Source of the DNA: Gammaproteobacteria bacterium UBA7376
GTDB taxonomy: Bacteria; Pseudomonadota; Gammaproteobacteria; Pseudomonadales; Azotimanducaceae
Length of the DNA stretch: 18,588 nucleotides
Assembly: GCA_002470275.1 (NCBI GenBank)
Contig: DKNY01000015.1
Span: 92,354 to 110,941, forward strand
Reading direction: 5' to 3'
This document shows, piece by piece, positions 5,836 through 16,614 of this stretch (position 1 is the first letter of the stretch; every line of letters starts with the position of its first letter). A program made the translations under genes and the position numbers. A model generated the notes under the pieces. It ran no database searches. It saw only the letters and a list, made by a program, of their open reading frames with translations, and was not told the DNA's origin.

Positions 5836-7953
5836 TTAGTAGGACGTATCCGTCAGGAAATAGGTCCTGAGGCGACCAGCACCCTTAACCTCAATCTCGC
5901 CTCGGGTGACGATATCGAAGGGTTCAGTAAGCGTGTCGCGAAAACTTTCGGTGATTTGAATTTGGTTGGGAATCCCGGTGGATTCCATTCGACTGGCAAT
6001 GTTGACTGCATCCCCCCAAAGATCGTAGATGAATTTTGAGGTGCCGATAACCCCGGCGACTACGGGGCCGCTGTGGGCACCCACTCGGACTTTGATATTG
6101 GTTCTTCTCTCCTGGTTAAAGTCGGCGACGGTTCGCAGCATGCCAAGAGCAAGATCAGCAATGGGATCCGCATGCGCCTCCCGTTTGGTGGGCAGCCCAC
6201 AAACGGCCATGTAGGCATCACCAATGGTCTTGATTTTTTCCACCCCCAGGGCCAACGCTAACTTATCAAATCTGCCGAATAGATCGTCCAGGAGATCAAG
6301 CACCGCCATGGGGGGAATGCCTCGAGACATGGCGGTGAAACCAACGATGTCCGCGAAGAGGACGCTGGCCGCAGGATAGGCGTCTGCAATTCTGGCTTCA
6401 CCGCTCTTCAACCGCTCTGCAATCGGGGGTGGGAGTACGTTCAGCAACAGGCGATTGTTTTCCTCAACTTTATATTCAATGGTTTCTTTCTGTTCTTGGA
6501 GATTGACCGTCATTCTGTTGAATTGATCTGTGAGGAAGCCCAGCTCATCATTTGACTTAACGGGTAGCTGCACATTCTTTTCTCCCATACCCACGCGCTG
6601 GGCGGCTTCGGTCAGCCTGACGATTGGGCGTGTAAAGGATCGACTGAGTCTAATCGAAAGTAGCAGGACGGCGATGCCGATCAAAAAAGAGGAGAGCACC
6701 AGCTCCCGCCGCAGGGTCTTAATCGGCGCGAAGGCCTCGGCGGTATCCATTTCTGAGATCATTGCCCAGCGCAAGCTGCCGAATTTCACGGGTCGAAAGG
6801 AGCTGAGCACCTCTGCACCTCGGTAATCTTTAAAAATACCGGTATCGATCCCCCCCTGATTAACGGTCAGGCTGCCCGGCGTCTCGACCTTCTGCAGCAG
6901 GATCGTCGTATCGTGTTTCAGGATTTGATCGATCACTGCGCTCGGCGTGCCGAGGCTGGTCAGGGCGCGAATATAATTTTCTTTATCCTCAACGAGGAAA
7001 CGAGAGACGCTACGCATTTTTAGATCGTTGCCGACCAGATAGGTTTCGCCAGTTTTACCCAGACCGTCCTCCTGCCAGCCCTGGTTTCCCGTCATAATTT
7101 GATTAATCTTGTTGACGGAAATCTGAAAAATCAGAATGCCGATGACCTGGCCTTGATAGACGATAGGCGTGGAGATAAAGGCCTCAGGGTTACCGTAGGA
7201 CGGTGTGTAGGGAGAGAAGTCGACAAAGTGTACGGCAGCGGGATCGGTGCTGGCCTTGGCCCGTCTCATGGCCTCCGCGATGTTTGAATCACGGTGGGGT
7301 CCCGTTTTCAGGCTTGTTCCGAAGTCGGTTTCCTTGGAGACCGTATAGACGATGTGCTCAGAATCGACGTCCACTAAAAAAATGTCGTAATAGCCAAAGG
7401 CGTTACGGAAATTACGAATACTTGGGTGGTAGGCGGCATGCGTTTCGCTATAGGGACTGGCGTCCTCTGCAGCGATCTCCAGCCTGTCATGCTCAGGAAT
7501 GGGGTAGGGGTTCATAGCCAGGTAATGATGTTGAAGGTAGCGCCCACCGGGGCTGGTGGGCAGAAACGCCAGGTGATCCCCACCAGATGATGCACTGCCC
7601 CGATAGAGCATGAAAAAGTCTTCTCGGTAGAAGTCGGCCAGCTCTGCGGATACATCTGCTGGTCCCTGCTGGGCGCCGGCGTTGAGCTGTTCGAATGCAG
7701 CGCCGAAGTTAAGCATCGCTTCAGTGATCGTTTTGTCTTGAGAGAGGGTTCTTATTTGATGCTCAATGGTTAGAAGGTGATCTGATAGCTGGGAAGCCTT
7801 AGACGCATTGATTGAGGTCTGGTGAGCCAGCGTATTAGCCTCCAGGGCAGCTTTGCCGGCTCGATATCCAATCCACCCCAGGGTGGCGCTTATAACGAAG
7901 CAGATGAACAACAGTAAGCTGGTAACCTTGGCGCTGATATTCCACTTGAGCAC
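5836..7953 (-). CDS. Membrane adenylate cyclase, Cache-HAMP-class III cyclase
   Basis: A predicted receptor-type enzyme making cAMP from ATP in response to an extracytoplasmic signal; 705 residues. Order: transmembrane segment at about 9-31, a large periplasmic sensor (about 32-410, Cache-like by layout and the RSVSRFLVEDKENYIRAL segment), a second transmembrane segment at about 414-434, a HAMP linker (TRPIVRLTEAAQRVGMG), a short coiled coil, and a class III catalytic domain from about 525. Catalytic features are complete: metal-binding D535 (FADIVGFT) and D579 (KTIGDAY), plus the VNIASRM Asn/Arg pair. The adenine-selecting pair K575 and D644 (YDLWGD) favours adenylate over guanylate cyclase. 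The start is GTG with AGAGGA 8 bases upstream. It converges with lysC. The signal it senses is unknown. Confidence 0.9.
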   Translation of the reverse strand: MLKWNISAKVTSLLLFICFVISATLGWIGYRAGKAALEANTLAHQTSINASKASQLSDHLLTIEHQIRTLSQDKTITEAMLNFGAAFEQLNAGAQQGPADVSAELADFYREDFFMLYRGSASSGGDHLAFLPTSPGGRYLQHHYLAMNPYPIPEHDRLEIAAEDASPYSETHAAYHPSIRNFRNAFGYYDIFLVDVDSEHIVYTVSKETDFGTSLKTGPHRDSNIAEAMRRAKASTDPAAVHFVDFSPYTPSYGNPEAFISTPIVYQGQVIGILIFQISVNKINQIMTGNQGWQEDGLGKTGETYLVGNDLKMRSVSRFLVEDKENYIRALTSLGTPSAVIDQILKHDTTILLQKVETPGSLTVNQGGIDTGIFKDYRGAEVLSSFRPVKFGSLRWAMISEMDTAEAFAPIKTLRRELVLSSFLIGIAVLLLSIRLSRSFTRPIVRLTEAAQRVGMGEKNVQLPVKSNDELGFLTDQFNRMTVNLQEQKETIEYKVEENNRLLLNVLPPPIAERLKSGEARIADAYPAASVLFADIVGFTAMSRGIPPMAVLDLLDDLFGRFDKLALALGVEKIKTIGDAYMAVCGLPTKREAHADPIADLALGMLRTVADFNQERRTNIKVRVGAHSGPVVAGVIGTSKFIYDLWGDAVNIASRMESTGIPNQIQITESFRDTLTEPFDIVTRGEIEVKGAGRLRTYFLTDTSY

Positions 7954-10099: not shown

Positions 10100-10570
10100 A
10101 TGACACTAAATTTTTCACGCCGTCGGCTGCTGACTGTGGCAGCCGCCATGCCGGTGATCGCCGCGATCAGGCCGGGTTTGGCTGCTCCGAGCATGACCGT
10201 CTACCGAACGCCTACCTGCGGCTGCTGCCTGAAGTGGGTGGCGAGCATGCGCAGCGCGGGTCTTGGGGCATCGCTGGTCAATGTCGACCAATCGGAGCTG
10301 AATGAGATTAAGGCTAGTAATGGCATCACGTCCGGGCTGGCGAGCTGTCATACCGCTTTGGTGGATGGCTATGTTATTGAGGGCCATGTTCCTGCGGCCG
10401 ATATCCTTCGTCTTCTGGCAGAGCGTCCTGCTGCTCGGGGGCTGGCCGTGCCGGGCATGCCTATTGGATCACCTGGTATGGAGGTGGGTGACCGCCGTGA
10501 GCCCTTTGATACCTTGCTGGTGCAGGCTGACGGCCAGTCCAGCGTCTTCGCCGAGCATCACCGCCGTTAG
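10100..10570 (+). CDS. DUF411 exported metal-binding protein
   Basis: A 156-residue DUF411 protein. The N-terminus NFSRRRLLTVAAAMPVIAAI...LAA looks like a Tat-type or Sec signal sequence with an Ala-x-Ala-like cleavage site near residue 29, so the mature protein should be periplasmic. The defining metal motif TPTCGCC lies at residues 37-43, followed by SCHTALVDGYVIEGHVPA and the GLAVPGMPIGSPGME segment typical of the family. These proteins are widely linked with copper resistance and are probably copper binders or chaperones. The direct role is inferred. It lies 11 bases after the DUF4396 gene, under the same copper-type promoter. It converges with the beta-propeller gene, whose stop is 9 bases away. 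Confidence 0.87.
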   Translation: MTLNFSRRRLLTVAAAMPVIAAIRPGLAAPSMTVYRTPTCGCCLKWVASMRSAGLGASLVNVDQSELNEIKASNGITSGLASCHTALVDGYVIEGHVPAADILRLLAERPAARGLAVPGMPIGSPGMEVGDRREPFDTLLVQADGQSSVFAEHHRR

Positions 10571-10579
10571 GCGCGCCCT

Positions 10580-12037
10580 CTAGACCTGGTCGATATAGAC
10601 CGCGTACAGCCGCACATCCTCGGGCCTAAGGCCGCCAAAGTTAACGCGTACTCGAATTTGGCCGGTCACGTTCTCAACAAGCGCGTGGTTCTGCCAGGTC
10701 ATAGACTGAGAGAAGCCCGTTCCGTCAGGCCCTCGACTGGCGCTGTGGTCATAGCCAGAAATCACCTGGAACTCGCGGTCTAGAATTTCCACCGAGAGGG
10801 TGGAGTGCTCGTTAATGCCCGCTACATTCACGCTAATTCGAACGGCCTGGCCCTCCAAGTCTATGGGGGCAGACACGAAGTGCGAGGGCGAGCCAGCAGA
10901 CCGAGACCAGGCGCCGGTATCGAAGGGTGAAAAATAACTCAGCCGATCACGTGGCCAACTGGTGACTCGAACACCGTCGCTCGCTTCCTCGGGCCAGGGC
11001 GCGTACCAGAACAAGGTTTCGTCACCCACGTTTTCAAAAGCCTGGCCCTGAATGAGGGCGGGAAAATTGAGATCAAGGGAAGCGCGGCGTTTCTCTCCCC
11101 AGCTGTCCTCCGCAGCAGAGACCATGGGGAAATCCGGCACGGGCTCTTTGTAGTGCAGGGCATCGTTGCTCACGGCGAGGCCCAGATCCATGGTGAGCAT
11201 GCGTCGGTCATTGGACGGATGCCCATTCCACTTGCCATATAGACCGACGATCACATTGCCGCGATTCCAGAGCGCGGCGCCGAGGTGCACTTGTTCCCCG
11301 TCATTTTTGCCCGACACTGCGGACTTTGGTGAAAGATTGCTGCGTCGTAGACCGGCACAGGTAGCCTCCGACCAGTTTTCGAAGTCATAGGAAGCGGTTG
11401 TTGAGAGTTGTCGAATGCCCACACCATGTTTACCCCCCTGGCCGGCGAGATAGTAGCAGCCATCGATTTTCGCTCCCCCGCCCATTTCGAACCAGCCGCC
11501 TACGGGGTTGTTGGGGGACTCCTGCCAGCTGACCCCGTCGGCGCTGTAGGCTACGCTCAGACGTGACCCGTGCTTGCGTGTCTCCAAGGCCATCTTGAAA
11601 CGTCGAGTTGGGTCCGGGTCGTCAGGGTCATGGAAAATGATGCAGGCCTGGACATGCATGTCTTCACCCATGGCAACCAAATTGTTGTCTTTGCTGCCGT
11701 GATAGTTCACCAACCCCAAATTGGGCTTCTCCCACTCGCGCCCATCGAGACTCTTGGCGAAACAGACGCGCTGGTGCCACGGCTCGTCCGGCCCCTGTCC
11801 GAGGTACCACATCCAAAGTTCTCCCTCGACCTCAAGGACAGTGCCATAAAAGGCGATCCAAAGGCTGTCATGCGCGCCCGGCCCGCCCAAGGGCACGACG
11901 GGCTTGTTGCCATGACCGCCGATGCGGCCCTGAAGCGTGAGGCCCACACCGTGTTGGAACGGGATACTGAAGTCATCGAAGGGAAAGAGAACGACCTTGT
12001 CCAGGCTTTGGGCCGCACCGCCGTTGTAGATACGCAT
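10580..12037 (-). CDS. Beta-propeller glycosidase-like protein (GH32/43-like)
   Basis: A 485-residue protein that I recognise only at fold level. Repeated motifs resemble five-bladed propeller glycosidases and sialidase-like Asp-box proteins: SLWIAFYGTVLEVEGELWMWYLG, CFAKSLDGREWEKPNLGLV, VAYSADGVSWQESP and LAVSNDALHYKEPVPDF. The last ~120 residues look like a beta-sandwich (APIDLEGQAVRISVNVAG...). No signal peptide is seen, so it is probably cytoplasmic. Substrate and activity cannot be told; a GH32/GH43/GH117-type hydrolase is the closest guess. It starts with ATG and AAGGA nearby upstream. It lies 156 bases downstream of the MTHFR gene on the same strand and may share its transcript or have its own promoter. 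Confidence 0.6.
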   Translation of the reverse strand: MRIYNGGAAQSLDKVVLFPFDDFSIPFQHGVGLTLQGRIGGHGNKPVVPLGGPGAHDSLWIAFYGTVLEVEGELWMWYLGQGPDEPWHQRVCFAKSLDGREWEKPNLGLVNYHGSKDNNLVAMGEDMHVQACIIFHDPDDPDPTRRFKMALETRKHGSRLSVAYSADGVSWQESPNNPVGGWFEMGGGAKIDGCYYLAGQGGKHGVGIRQLSTTASYDFENWSEATCAGLRRSNLSPKSAVSGKNDGEQVHLGAALWNRGNVIVGLYGKWNGHPSNDRRMLTMDLGLAVSNDALHYKEPVPDFPMVSAAEDSWGEKRRASLDLNFPALIQGQAFENVGDETLFWYAPWPEEASDGVRVTSWPRDRLSYFSPFDTGAWSRSAGSPSHFVSAPIDLEGQAVRISVNVAGINEHSTLSVEILDREFQVISGYDHSASRGPDGTGFSQSMTWQNHALVENVTGQIRVRVNFGGLRPEDVRLYAVYIDQV

Positions 12038-12102
12038 GCTGTTTCCTTATTTTCGCGCCACAGGAGCAAATAAATAGCAGAGCAAACGCCCAACCCTCTT
12101 TG

Positions 12103-12193: not shown

Positions 12194-13057
12194 TTACGAC
12201 CTGAAACGAGCAATGATCCGCGCTGATCTCTTTTCACAATTTGGGCCCATCAGATGCACACCGCCAATTTCCGGTAGCTGCATGAGTTCGCCGATGAGTT
12301 CCTCGCAAATGGCTTCGCCCTCTCGCAGTGGCTCGTGGCTCTGCTCCAGTCTTTGGACAATGTCATCCGATATGTTGACCCCCCACAGGTTTTTGCGCAT
12401 CCAGTCCGCCTGTTTGGCGGAGGCCAGCGGGCCAAGGCCGACCAGCACTTTGCGGTCCTTAAAAGCCGGCGTCTCAGACAGCTTCTTTGCATAAGCTTTG
12501 ATGACGTCCAGATCAAAGCAGTACTGCGTTTGAACGAAACCGGCGCCATCTTCGATTTTTCGAAGCAAGCCGGCGGCCGCGTTCTCATTGTCGAGGTGTT
12601 GATAGATGTCGTCTGCTGCGCCCGGGTAGACCGTCTTGGCAGCCTTGATCGGCGTACCGTCGCTCAACGTCCCTTGGCTTAGGGTGTTGCACAGCTGAAT
12701 AAGGCCTGCACCGTTAAATTCATTGACAGCCTTGGGTCCGCCCTCTGGCGGTTGGTCCCCTGTGAGGCAAAGTACCTTGTTAACGCCAGCCGATAGGGCG
12801 CCAAGGAGTTCCGACTCGAGGGCAATGGCATTCCTGTCTCGCCCGGTGAGCTGCAGAATAACGTCAAGCCCTTTTCTGCGAATTTCGGCCGCAACGAGCA
12901 GGCTGCTGAGCCTGGTTTTGCTGTTTGGAGAATCCGTGACGTTGATCGCGTCGGCAACACCGACCAGGTCATCGACCCTGCCGGCACTGGCTGCTAAATC
13001 TGTGGAAACGTCCGGCGTGGTCTCCGCGGTAAAGAGGAAATTTTGAGATTCGAACAT
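12194..13057 (-). CDS. Methylenetetrahydrofolate reductase family protein
   Basis: A flavin-dependent TIM-barrel enzyme interconverting 5,10-methylene-THF and 5-methyl-THF; 287 residues, near the family's ~290. Seen motifs: the catalytic Glu region FTAETTP (E12), NVTDSP (40-44), QLTGRDRN (69-76), LTGDQPPEGG (98-107) and DGAGFVQTQYCFD, which corresponds to the substrate/FAD site. It starts 4 bases after the upstream methyltransferase gene, so the two are surely co-transcribed and probably coupled. Beside a methyl-THF-forming enzyme it is more likely to oxidise methyl-THF than to serve methionine synthesis, as proposed for metF-like genes near dmdA. It may therefore be a second MTHFR apart from the housekeeping metF. 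Confidence 0.9.
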   Translation of the reverse strand: MFESQNFLFTAETTPDVSTDLAASAGRVDDLVGVADAINVTDSPNSKTRLSSLLVAAEIRRKGLDVILQLTGRDRNAIALESELLGALSAGVNKVLCLTGDQPPEGGPKAVNEFNGAGLIQLCNTLSQGTLSDGTPIKAAKTVYPGAADDIYQHLDNENAAAGLLRKIEDGAGFVQTQYCFDLDVIKAYAKKLSETPAFKDRKVLVGLGPLASAKQADWMRKNLWGVNISDDIVQRLEQSHEPLREGEAICEELIGELMQLPEIGGVHLMGPNCEKRSARIIARFRS

Positions 13058-13061
13058 CGTG

Positions 13062-14180
13062 TTATCGCACCAATAATTTGTTTTTGTCGATGAAGGGAAG
13101 GTCTACCAGGCTGGCCTTGTAGAGACCGTCATCGGTTTCCACCTGGACTGCCGTGCCTGCGGTTGCTGTCGTGTTGAGTCTTGCGAAGCCTATGCCGCAC
13201 TGTAGTTCGTGAGAGTACGCCCCTGCGGTGACCTGTCCGGCAACGTCACCATTGGACCAGCGAATTTCGTTGCCTCGGGCCAAGGCGGCGTCCTCGCATT
13301 GAACGCCCAATAGTCGAATAGATTTGCGCTGGGTGGCCTCAAGTGCCTCGCGTCCAATGAAATCTGGCTTGTCCATGTGCACCAATCTGCCCAACCCAAG
13401 CTCGAAAGGGTTCATGCCTTGGTCAAAGTCGGTCCCATAGTCGAGAATGCCGGCCTCCAGCCTTCGGATATGCATAGAGGTGAGATCAGATGCGATGAGA
13501 CCAGCAGGGGCACCCTTGTCGAGCAGGTGCTCCCACAGGGCAACGCCGTCAAAGTCAGCGCCCTTTGAGTAAATTTCAAATCCACGTTCTCCAGTCCATC
13601 CAGATCTGGAGACGTAGCAGGGCACGCCATTTATGTCGGTCTCGCACATGGCGTAGTAAGAAAACTCGGTATCTGAAATGCCCGTGACGGCTTCAAGAAC
13701 CTGTAAAGACGTCGGACCTTGAATCTGAAGAACCCATGAATCGAAATCTTCAATGACCGCGTCATACTCACGGAGGTTGGCCGAGGCCCAGTTGAGGAAG
13801 TCGCCATCGGCTTGAACATAGATGTATTCATGTTCGTTCGGGCGCATGAGCACGCCGTCCATAACAACGCCACCCTCATGGTTGCAGGCAATAGCATACC
13901 CAGCACGACCCACGCGGATTTTACTGATCTGTCTCGTGAAGAGACGCTCCAGGAACAAAAGGCTGTCTTTGCCGGTAATTCTCAGGGGGGTTTCCGGCAC
14001 ATCGTATAGGCAGCAAGCCGTGCGAAGGGTTTCGTAGTGTTGCTTTGTATCGACGCCCGCGTCGAGGGGATAGAGTCGGTTATTGTAAATGCCGTACAGA
14101 ACGGTTCCCTGTTCGTTGCATTTGAAGAAGGGAGATTTTTTGAATCGATGATCGGAAATGGGCAGGGGCGAACGAGTCAT
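13062..14180 (-). CDS. GcvT/DmdA-like tetrahydrofolate-dependent methyltransferase
   Basis: A 372-residue member of the aminomethyltransferase (GcvT) superfamily. These enzymes move a methyl or aminomethyl group from a substrate to tetrahydrofolate. The GcvT_N fold has LYDVPETPLRITGKD, the conserved Asp D108 (GGVVMDGVL), and the SGWTGERGFEIY motif (193-204). The C-terminal beta-barrel ends SLVDLPFID, like DmdA. RRLEAGILDYGTDFDQGMNPFELGL matches the region before the C-terminal domain in both GcvT and DmdA. No gcvH or gcvP is adjacent, so this is not the glycine cleavage T-protein. The substrate could be dimethylsulfoniopropionate, dimethylglycine/sarcosine or another methyl donor; sequence alone does not decide. 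ATG start with AGAGG 6 bases upstream. It is divergent from the selenoprotein gene and heads an operon with MTHFR. Confidence 0.85.
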   Translation of the reverse strand: MTRSPLPISDHRFKKSPFFKCNEQGTVLYGIYNNRLYPLDAGVDTKQHYETLRTACCLYDVPETPLRITGKDSLLFLERLFTRQISKIRVGRAGYAIACNHEGGVVMDGVLMRPNEHEYIYVQADGDFLNWASANLREYDAVIEDFDSWVLQIQGPTSLQVLEAVTGISDTEFSYYAMCETDINGVPCYVSRSGWTGERGFEIYSKGADFDGVALWEHLLDKGAPAGLIASDLTSMHIRRLEAGILDYGTDFDQGMNPFELGLGRLVHMDKPDFIGREALEATQRKSIRLLGVQCEDAALARGNEIRWSNGDVAGQVTAGAYSHELQCGIGFARLNTTATAGTAVQVETDDGLYKASLVDLPFIDKNKLLVR

Positions 14181-14642
14181 GGCGGCCTCTAAGGCAATTA
14201 TTTTTTATGATTATCAACAAGCCTCCAGGCACGCTCGACAGAACGATTTCCGTCGGGTGCACGGCGGCCGGAATCGTCGCATTTTTGGGTTTTGAATAAA
14301 ACCCAGAGGGGCAATCTTCTTGACGATTTTATGTCAGGCGACCGGCGGCCAAACGACACCCTGGGCCTGCACGGCGGAGGCAGAATGCCAGTCATTGCTA
14401 AAAGCCGGGATAACGGTGAAGAGCGCCTGCCAGGGGCTTTAAAAGATAATTAAAACAGGGGTTTAAGCGATCGAGCGGCTTTGAGCGACAGGCAGGCTGC
14501 CTGTCGGACGGGTGGGCGAGGGCCATTGAGCCCACTTATGGGTGGTTTTGAGCCGAGGTCCAGTGCCAGCCCGAGACCTCGCATTGACTTGCTGAACAGC
14601 AATTGACAGTGTCCGTAGAGACCCACTCTGAAGGAACGGTGC
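14181..14642. other. Divergent intergenic region with several hairpins
   Basis: This 462-base region has no supported gene. It separates the methyltransferase from the divergent selenoprotein gene and must hold both promoters. Hairpin-forming repeats are frequent: GGGTTTT-GAAT-AAAACCC (14287-14304), a near-perfect CGACAGGCAG/CTGCCTGTCG (14486-14506), GAGGTC/GACCTC (14555-14580) and TTGCTG-AA-CAGCAA (14589-14602). GCACGGCGG also occurs twice, at about 14259 and 14370. The last three hairpins lie in the leader of the selenoprotein gene. I recognise no known riboswitch. AAGGA at 14631-14635 is the ribosome-binding site. Confidence 0.55.
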
Positions 14643-15815
14643 ATGTCTGTTTTCGGAAAAGACGAGGCGGCAATAGGGAAGTTTGCGGCGAGCCTGCCGC
14701 TTCCAGAATTCCCACCCTGTAGCTTCAACACACCCAAACCCCTGCATGCCGCGAAGGTCGCGATTGTCACGACAGCGGCGCTTCATCAAGAGGGGGGTGG
14801 TTTTGAACTGGGCGACAGCGACTACCACTATGAAACGCTGCCCAGCAGCGCACGAAACCTAAAGCTTGGGCACCACAGCGTAAATTTTGACAGAGGCGGT
14901 TTTGCCGCTGACATCAATGTTGTGTACCCCATCGACCGGCTCGAAGAATTGGCCGACAGTGGCGTTATCGGCGGCGTCTCGGAAAACCACTACGCTTTCG
15001 CGGGGAACCAGTCAGCCACCGTATCAGAAATTCGCCTGGATTCTGGTCCGCAATGCGCCCAAGCAATGCTCGAAGATGGTGTGGACATTGTCTTACTCAC
15101 AGGCACCTGACCTCTCTGTCCTCGTACCGTGTGTACGCTTGCCCATGTATTTGAAGCAGCAGGTCTGTCAACCATCGTCCTAACGCCCTTGCGTCCGGTG
15201 GCTGAGCGGATGGGTGTCCCAAGAACGCTTTATACGGATTTTCCCTTGGGACAATCTCTGGGAAAACCAAGGGATAAAGCCTTTCAGTCAGAGGTTTTGC
15301 TCGCCGCTTTTGATTTGCTAAAAGAGTCTGAGGGCCCGGTGATTCGAGATTTTCCCATTCGGATAAGTGCCACAGATAACGAGCCTTTGCAGTGTGCGCT
15401 TCCGCCACGAATGGATGCTGAACTGCCCCCGGCTGTAGATGAGGCCCAAGCACTAAAAGCCGCCTATGACCGCGCATTTGAAAAGAGCAACAAAACGTCA
15501 ATTGGCATGCGCATCAGCGCGGAGGAAGTGCCTGATGCCCTGGCAAAATTTGTAAAAATTGTAGAAGGTGAACACTGGGAAGACGTTGGCTTCACCGCTG
15601 AGTCCCTGTATGGAACGGCTCATGATGTTCGCTGCTATTATGAAGAGCTGGCCTGCGAGCTTGCTGAAGGCCCCATCGCGCCTTGGGCCACCGAGGAGTG
15701 GTTTTATGACCAAACCGAAGCAGGTGAGATTATTCTAAAGGCGCGACGAGTAATGCGAGACAAAGAGGTGGCGCAATCCGTCTGGTTTGGCTTGGCACCG
15801 GCGGGCAGAGCCTAA
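14643..15815 (+). CDS. PrdB/GrdB-like selenoprotein, TGA-encoded Sec at 156
   Basis: One continuous frame of 390 residues with a single in-frame TGA (15108-15110) at codon 156. Both sides fit one family, glycine/sarcosine/betaine/D-proline reductase selenoprotein B. Before the TGA there is VAIVTTAALHQEGGGFELGDSDYHYETLP and LEELADSGVIGGVSENHYAF. Across it the sequence reads VDIVLLTGT-U-PLCPRTV, where clostridial PrdB and GrdB carry the catalytic U-x-x-C. After it come FEAAGLSTIVLTPLRPVAERMGVPRTLYTDFPLG and LGKPRDKAFQSEVLLAAFDLL. The predicted redox pair is U156/C159. In PrdB, Sec also lies near residue 150; the extra ~150 C-terminal residues here are less familiar. Start ATG with AAGGA 7 bases upstream. 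Known relatives reductively cleave C-N bonds of amino acids or betaines; activity here is unknown. Confidence 0.88.
15108..15165 (+). promoter_or_regulatory. Candidate bacterial SECIS element
   Basis: Directly after the in-frame TGA, CGTAC (15123-15127) and GTACG (15133-15137) form a perfect 5-bp stem around the loop CGTGT. The loop G at 15129 lies 19 bases past the TGA, inside the 16-37 base window known for SelB-dependent bacterial SECIS hairpins, which need a G at the start of the apical loop. A longer closing stem, GACCT (15109-15113) with AGGTC (15161-15165), may pair the TGA region itself. The upper hairpin is seen directly; the lower pairing is speculative. Confidence 0.65.
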
Positions 15816-15879: not shown

Positions 15880-16614
15880 TTATTGGATGCGTCCGAATGG
15901 GTGTTCGTTGGCGAGCTTGCGCATTCTTGGTAAGCGATTCGCCAGTTTCAAGCGTCGTGTTTGAACGCCACTATGCAAGCGGGTTAGAACGGCTCTATGA
16001 GCAAAGACCCACGCTCGTATAAACCCGAGATAAAAAACGCCTGAGATGACTCTGGATTCGTGAGAAAACTGCGCGTCTAGAACCGCTGCGACAAGGCTGC
16101 CGAGACCTAACAAAGACAATAGAATGACCCGCCACTTGACGCCAAAGCGCCAGAGGACGGGCAAAATCAGAGGGAAGAGAATATAAAACTGCTCTTCGAC
16201 GGCGAGGCTCCAGGTATGGAGCAGCGGCTTGAGTTCCGCTCCAGTATCGAAGTATCCACTTTGTTGCCAGAGCAAAATATTAGAGGTAAGCGTTGCTGCG
16301 CCGGCCAGGCTTTCGCCGAAGCGCTTTAAATCATTTGGGATTAGCCATAACCAAGCGAACGGCGCACAGCAGGCCATTACGAGGAACAGGGCGGGCAGAA
16401 AACGTCTCGCGCGTGGTTCGTAAAGGTGGCGTAGGCGAAAAGCGCCCGCCGCCATTTCGGAGATGATGACGCCGGTGATTAAACAGCCGCTGATGACGAA
16501 AAAAACGTCGACGCCAACGAAACCGCCGCTGAACCAGTCAAATCCAGCATGGAAGAGCATCACCGGTAGCACGGCTAGGGCCCTCAGACCATCAACCTCC
16601 GGCCTGTAGGTCAT
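15880..16614 (-). pseudogene. Truncated acyltransferase-3 (OafA/YrhL-like) gene
   Basis: The N-terminal half of a membrane acyltransferase that would O-acetylate a surface polysaccharide. The family's start is intact: YRPEVDGLRALAVLPVMLFHAGF with the R-x10-H motif (R11, H22), then GGFVGVDVFFVISGCLI, FLPALFLVM and LHTWSLAVEEQFYILFPLIL. Full-length members have about 10 transmembrane helices and over 340 residues, often followed by an SGNH domain. This frame stops at 244. After FYLGFIRAW the sequence departs from the usual RAWELLIGALL and turns into a hydrophilic tail (GVQTRRLKLANRLPRMRKLAN), which suggests a frameshift plus loss of the 3' half. Only 64 bases separate it from the convergent selenoprotein gene. 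A functional short form cannot be excluded. Confidence 0.65.

Follow-up and report, generated by a model that had tools for sequence, protein, structure and literature searches.

The locus raises the question of whether an in-frame TGA is read as selenocysteine and, if so, what kind of enzyme the read-through product would be. We analyzed an 18,588-nt stretch of the draft genome of Gammaproteobacteria bacterium UBA7376, hereafter called the window. On its forward strand, a 390-codon frame (14643-15815) is interrupted solely by a TGA at 15108-15110. The open reading frames 14643-15110 and 15129-15815 share a common frame with this TGA as their only separator, and the read-through product of 390 aa places U156 within LLTGT-U-PLC-PRT. 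The initial annotation had described two frames in the same phase, with the TGA at the U of a U-x-x-C site, and the single 390-codon frame confirms this. It had also predicted that the gene would be mis-annotated as truncated genes. Consistent with this, many database homologs are 227-233 aa long and span solely the part after the TGA. The features of the locus are as follows:

14631..14635, + strand: AAGGA, probable ribosome-binding site 7 nt upstream of the ATG, read from the sequence.
14643..15815, + strand: PrdB-like selenoprotein gene, 390 aa if the TGA is selenocysteine (PF07355, 35.6 bits; TIGR04483, 131.7 bits).
14700..15338, + strand: PrdB-homologous core, approximately residues 20-232 (hhalign of profile A2 against Terrisporobacter PrdB, probability 99.9, E 2.1e-31).
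15108..15110, + strand: TGA, very probable selenocysteine codon (U156), which opens U-P-L-C; 18 TGA and 5 TGT over 23 loci.
15117..15119, + strand: Cys159, which presumably acts as the resolving cysteine of UxxC; of 85 aligned proteins, 83 have Cys here (1 V, 1 X).
15122..15138, + strand: putative bacterial SECIS hairpin, based on covariation; stem 15123-15127 with 15133-15137, loop 15128-15132.
15339..15812, + strand: residues 233-390, the C-terminal part of the long form, without a Pfam match and missing from PrdB of 237-241 aa.
15393..15395, + strand: Cys251, third cysteine of the long form, nearly invariant (Cys in 84 of 85).

The genetic code is not reassigned, since the selenoprotein gene is terminated by TAA and alaS in the same window ends with TGA as an ordinary stop. 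Both halves of the frame are under purifying selection. Compared with 20 relatives, pN/pS ranged over 0.155-0.259 in the part preceding the TGA and over 0.155-0.320 in the part following it, with pS near saturation. Within the window, no tRNA was detected by ARAGORN and no Rfam family at its gathering score.

The TGA at codon 156 very probably codes for selenocysteine, and this case draws its strength from the comparison among relatives. A scan of contigs uncovered 24 related loci, and the 23 that span the site carry either TGA (18) or TGT (5). The recurrence of TGA in 18 other loci speaks against a sequencing error. In the first protein search, 57 of 59 full-length rows (including the query, its Sec shown as Cys) had Cys at the site, with one G and one S; this count is biased because the protein database holds the non-TGA forms at full length. 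Alignment with Sec and Cys homologs, a check proposed in the initial annotation, was then available for a wider set, in which 81 of 85 proteins have Cys or Sec at the site and the rest have G (2), S (1), or L (1). These four homologs are a point against a Sec-based explanation, but relatives with such other sense codons are rare.

A SECIS hairpin, as expected of a bacterial selenoprotein gene, is conserved directly downstream of the TGA. The stem begins 12 nt downstream of the TGA, and its outermost pair (15122/15138) is unformed in the window. Across 34 TGA genes (35 rows, one entered twice; 33 distinct), the covariation score was 0.564, compared with 0.166 +/- 0.026 in shuffles, none of which (0 of 500) scored as high, and it was at most 0.168 when the hairpin was slid by 1 to 3 columns. 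Six of the seven pairs vary on both sides, a number also reached by 17 of 500 shuffles; the number of pair types was matched by 47 of 500, and the innermost pair is formed in 11 of 33. The window itself forms 5 contiguous pairs, as do only 1.2% of synonymous recodings (0.012). When contiguous stem length was tested in this way, with codon usage taken from only four window genes and two TGA rows with N omitted, 27 of 32 TGA genes fell below 0.05 while none of the five TGT genes did. The other five TGA genes were unremarkable, which counts against the hairpin.

The stem is interrupted in all five Cys forms. In two of them (L035 and L037), however, a single central mismatch leaves 6 of 7 pairs intact, more than the 5 of 7 in the window, which also counts against the hairpin; the other three TGT genes retain 3 or 4 pairs. 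Codon choice was compared in 16 of the 19 TGA forms from the window and the related loci, window included. Codons +5, +6, and +9, which are those forming the hairpin, are CGT, ACC, and ACG in 94-100% of these Sec forms; of 118 other codons with four-fold or higher degeneracy, not one reaches 90%. Among the five Cys forms, the commonest codon at these positions has a frequency of 0.4-0.8. Folded alone, the 46-nt stretch from the window had the stability of its shuffled versions (z = 0.06), a further point against; z ranged from -2.46 to +0.61 in five other TGA stretches and was 0.86 and -0.01 in two TGT stretches. The reading of the TGA as selenocysteine was therefore borne out by all comparative tests, though not by the fold energy of the window.

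The host carries the genes for decoding such a codon. The initial annotation had asked for selA, selB, selC, and selD and taken their absence as grounds for rejecting its reading; all are present in the draft genome (2.58 Mb, 96.7% complete). The genes selA, selB, and the tRNA-Sec gene (anticodon UCA) lie together on one contig (C24), with the start of the selB frame overlapping the last 4 nt of the selA frame, and selD lies on another (C10). Among 293 genomes of the order, a relative was found in 9 at E 1e-20, and all 15 matches, including the window, contain exactly one TGA. We found selB in 9 of 9 genomes with a relative compared with 38 of 293 overall (hypergeometric 4e-9). This co-occurrence is not independent and represents about two lineages, because eight of the nine genomes come from a single family, and every one of its 12 sampled members has selB. 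A class-wide search at E 1e-60 matched only the window's own genome among 369.

The related loci carry mostly Gammaproteobacteria, Pseudomonadales, Porticoccaceae, or SAR92 labels, and we take them to be marine from isolate names and general knowledge. One lies in an assembly labeled Actinomycetota (L041, 8001-9140) and encodes a Sec form that shares 49% identity with the window protein, so Gammaproteobacteria may not be the only group with the long form. The PF07355 profile was positive in 7 of the 9 genomes with a relative. Another PrdB-like frame with an in-frame TGA lies in the window's own genome, on contig C65 at 28563-28946 (L050, 1096-1977, - strand); it has 293 aa, UPVC, and its own SECIS-like hairpin. 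This paralog is near an EamA transporter gene and a ferritin-like gene. A genome of the same genus (G039) contains four TGA-containing relatives. Eleven shorter paralogs are 288-343 aa long, and six of them have a C-terminal CxxC between U+124 and U+144.

To which family the protein belongs can be narrowed by profile scores. The TIGR04483 (PrdB) profile matches residues 28-228 with E 2.8e-38, but its 131.7 bits miss the cut-off of 300. The PF07355 (GRDB) match passes (35.6 bits, gathering cut-off 22, E 8.6e-9), and that to TIGR01918, the selenoprotein B subfamily, misses its cut-off (52.9 bits, cut-off 65.45). The homology claimed when the protein was called a PrdB/GrdB-like reductase therefore stands, while the curated cut-offs for PrdB and selenoprotein B are not reached. 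Judged by these scores, "PrdB/GrdB-like" is right and "a PrdB" would be wrong.

The core tree agrees in separating the window from PrdB. A branch with support 99/97 parts the window and the long forms from clostridial PrdB and the 11 shorter TGA paralogs; the tree is midpoint-rooted, and the tree program flags the join of PrdB and the long forms as a meeting point of long branches. It excludes GrdB (rows GrdB_L091 and GrdB_L089, the latter a very long branch), and the TGA paralogs L068-L070 take a different position in the first tree. The window pairs with a Cys protein, P0002, as its sister row (97/86). A further 12 Cys rows group together as a clade nested in the gammaproteobacterial set, and at least three changes between Sec and Cys labels are forced. 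D83, R84, D90, and E267 are found in 85 of 85 proteins and H116 in 84 of 85, and such conservation suggests that these residues may line a substrate pocket. Beyond residue 232 there is no Pfam match, and the conserved positions there are chiefly C251 (84/85) and E267 (85/85). The search against solved structures gave no significant match. An Asp/Glu-racemase-like fold was considered and rejected (hhalign of A2 against E. coli YgeA, probability 0.3%; the single sequence makes this a weak test).

PrdB and GrdB act with partner proteins. PF09338 (PrdA/GrdE) was found in none of the nine genomes of the order with a relative, the window's own draft included, and was positive in both clostridial control records. 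PF04723 (GrdA) was likewise found in none of the nine, and was positive in one of the two controls (W01). The absence of grdA and prdA noted in the initial annotation thus holds genome-wide in the draft, as judged by profile searches for the GrdA and the PrdA/GrdE families. Because these families were not found, the known D-proline/glycine reductase complex is probably not present. It would be unusual for a relative of PrdB and GrdB to act entirely alone, and this counts against our main reading.

A conserved operon partner was also sought among the neighbors and rejected: for the MTHFR-like and GcvT-like neighbors in the window, the stretches retrieved around the 24 related loci contain no homolog (35% identity, E 1e-12). 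The MTHFR-like and GcvT/DmdA-like genes adjoin each other upstream of the selenoprotein gene and are divergent from it (12194-14180, - strand); the pair suggests methyl-group transfer to folate. Downstream lies an acyltransferase-3 gene (15880-16614, - strand), with a homolog downstream of the Sec relative L041 only (10123-12102), possibly by chance. Farther away, the window encodes a protein with an adenylate/guanylate cyclase catalytic domain and HAMP (5836-7953, - strand), with a dCache match below its cut-off.

The neighbors at related loci vary and include an AMP-binding ligase, SDR, Rieske dioxygenase, TauD, GST, sulfatase, and symporters, in a scan that covered 45 different neighbor proteins as a subset. 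From these assignments, the neighborhoods would seem to serve mostly small-molecule catabolism, with no convergence on one substrate. Two genomes of the window's genus have a TauD-family dioxygenase gene that follows a TGA-containing PrdB-like paralog with hardly any gap (L068, 2302-3150; L069, 7230-8084), and the two genes likely form an operon; the TauD Pfam match was made on the L068 copy, and the L069 copy is in the same cluster. In another family, a Sec homolog of 43% identity is followed, in the same direction, by two consecutive genes for proteins with GST N-terminal domains (L067, 3528-5858).

We propose that SelB and tRNA-Sec, acting at the SECIS hairpin, insert selenocysteine at the UGA of codon 156, and that the product would most likely be a soluble thiol-dependent reductase. 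The Sec156 selenolate would attack a polarized center of a small organic substrate, such as a C-N, C-O, C-S, or C-halogen bond. Cys159 would then resolve the selenium adduct to an Se-S bond, which the thioredoxin/glutathione pool may re-reduce, perhaps through Cys251. In GrdB chemistry, the selenolate attacks a polarized carbon. The attack step is supported by a published precedent, the proposal that in the GrdB-like FarB the Sec residue attacks the C-F bond in monofluoroacetate (PMC10838667). Taken together, a genuine selenoprotein that is a stand-alone long-form relative of the D-proline/glycine reductase selenoprotein subunit and works as such a reductase is the reading that we consider probable.

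A true stop codon, or a sequencing or assembly error, would make the locus a pseudogene or two genes, and the draft state of the sequence and the ordinary energy of the window hairpin would allow for this. It is nevertheless very unlikely because of the conservation of the TGA (18 of 23 other loci have it at this codon), the covariation of the hairpin, and the purifying selection on both halves; the complete sel set also argues against it. Clear PrdB homology over residues 28-228, in a family whose known members work in complexes, could instead point to a D-proline/glycine-type reductase subunit with an unrecognized pyruvoyl or Schiff-base partner encoded elsewhere. We hold this to be improbable: PF09338 and PF04723 were found in none of the nine genomes with a relative (the window's own being a 96.7% complete draft), the TIGR04483 cut-off was missed, the site is UPxC and not UGTC, and the window lies across the 99/97 branch from PrdB, where long branches are flagged.

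It is also rather unlikely that the protein is a selenium-based thiol oxidoreductase or peroxidase, using a glutaredoxin-like UPxC site on disulfides or peroxides and no carbon substrate. U-P-x-C after a hydrophobic run does resemble the CPYC of glutaredoxin, the third Cys is nearly invariant, and the two GST-domain genes after the homolog in L067 would fit such a role. However, the glutaredoxin matches are weak, local, and not significant (E 0.58-0.76), and D83, R84, D90, E267, and H116 would rather indicate a substrate pocket. The stand-alone reductase can be extended to a wider picture, to which we give about an even chance. In it, a non-clostridial family of selenol reductases would have left the PrdA/GrdA complex to act alone. 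The family would combine UPxC with a new C-terminal region and a distant, nearly invariant Cys, would have undergone repeated Sec/Cys exchange, and would have diversified into up to four Sec paralogs in one genome for different small-molecule substrates.

PrdB-type proteins are among the commoner selenoproteins of two marine metagenome surveys, which in their available text give them the clostridial function only. The failure to find the clostridial partner families here argues against that function. With clean Sec/Cys pairs at hand, the benefit of selenium becomes testable, and reading through the TGA corrects an annotation error that recurs in databases. Among the matches listed, titles and abstract openings reported no function for the marine PrdB form, in a literature scope with subscription journals mostly outside it. 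PrdB is classed as a D-proline reductase (PMC9312934, PMC13188914), and proline reductase selenoproteins are known outside clostridia, as Anaeromyxobacter and Geobacter are listed among their hosts (PMC1794560).

Compared with PrdB (TIGR04483), 216 columns of the window protein align with PrdB residues 8-227 of 241, with Sec in the same column and the second Cys three positions on. The two clostridial PrdB proteins are 241 and 237 aa long with UGTC, whereas the window protein has 390 aa and UPLC, and in Terrisporobacter prdA lies one gene upstream of prdB. The window protein shares PF07355 and a Sec followed by Cys with FarB and with GrdB/GrdF/GrdH, the selenoprotein B of glycine, sarcosine, and betaine reductase, but matches PF07355 positions 201-347 only, and GrdA- and GrdE-family genes were not found in its draft genome. 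The selenolate attack at a substrate carbon that has been proposed for GrdB and FarB would be common to both.

The window protein belongs to a kind of selenoprotein that is already published, as marine PrdB-type UxxC proteins have been in print since 2005. The statement in the initial annotation that PrdB-like selenoproteins occur in marine metagenomes is upheld by the 42 PrdB Sec genes of the Sargasso Sea set of 2005 (PMC1088965) and by the Global Ocean Sampling set of 2008, with 235 Sec and 110 Cys forms, motif UxxC, and pfam07355 (PMC2398784). Compared by domain and motif, these resemble the window protein in UxxC, the in-frame TGA, their origin in ocean samples, and, for the latter set, pfam07355. 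They differ in being treated as proline reductase, and the available text of both reports makes no mention of a long form, missing partners, or within-genome paralogs (PMC1088965, PMC2398784). The details that are new here are the nearly invariant C251, the C-terminal region without a Pfam match, and the four TGA-containing relatives in one genome.
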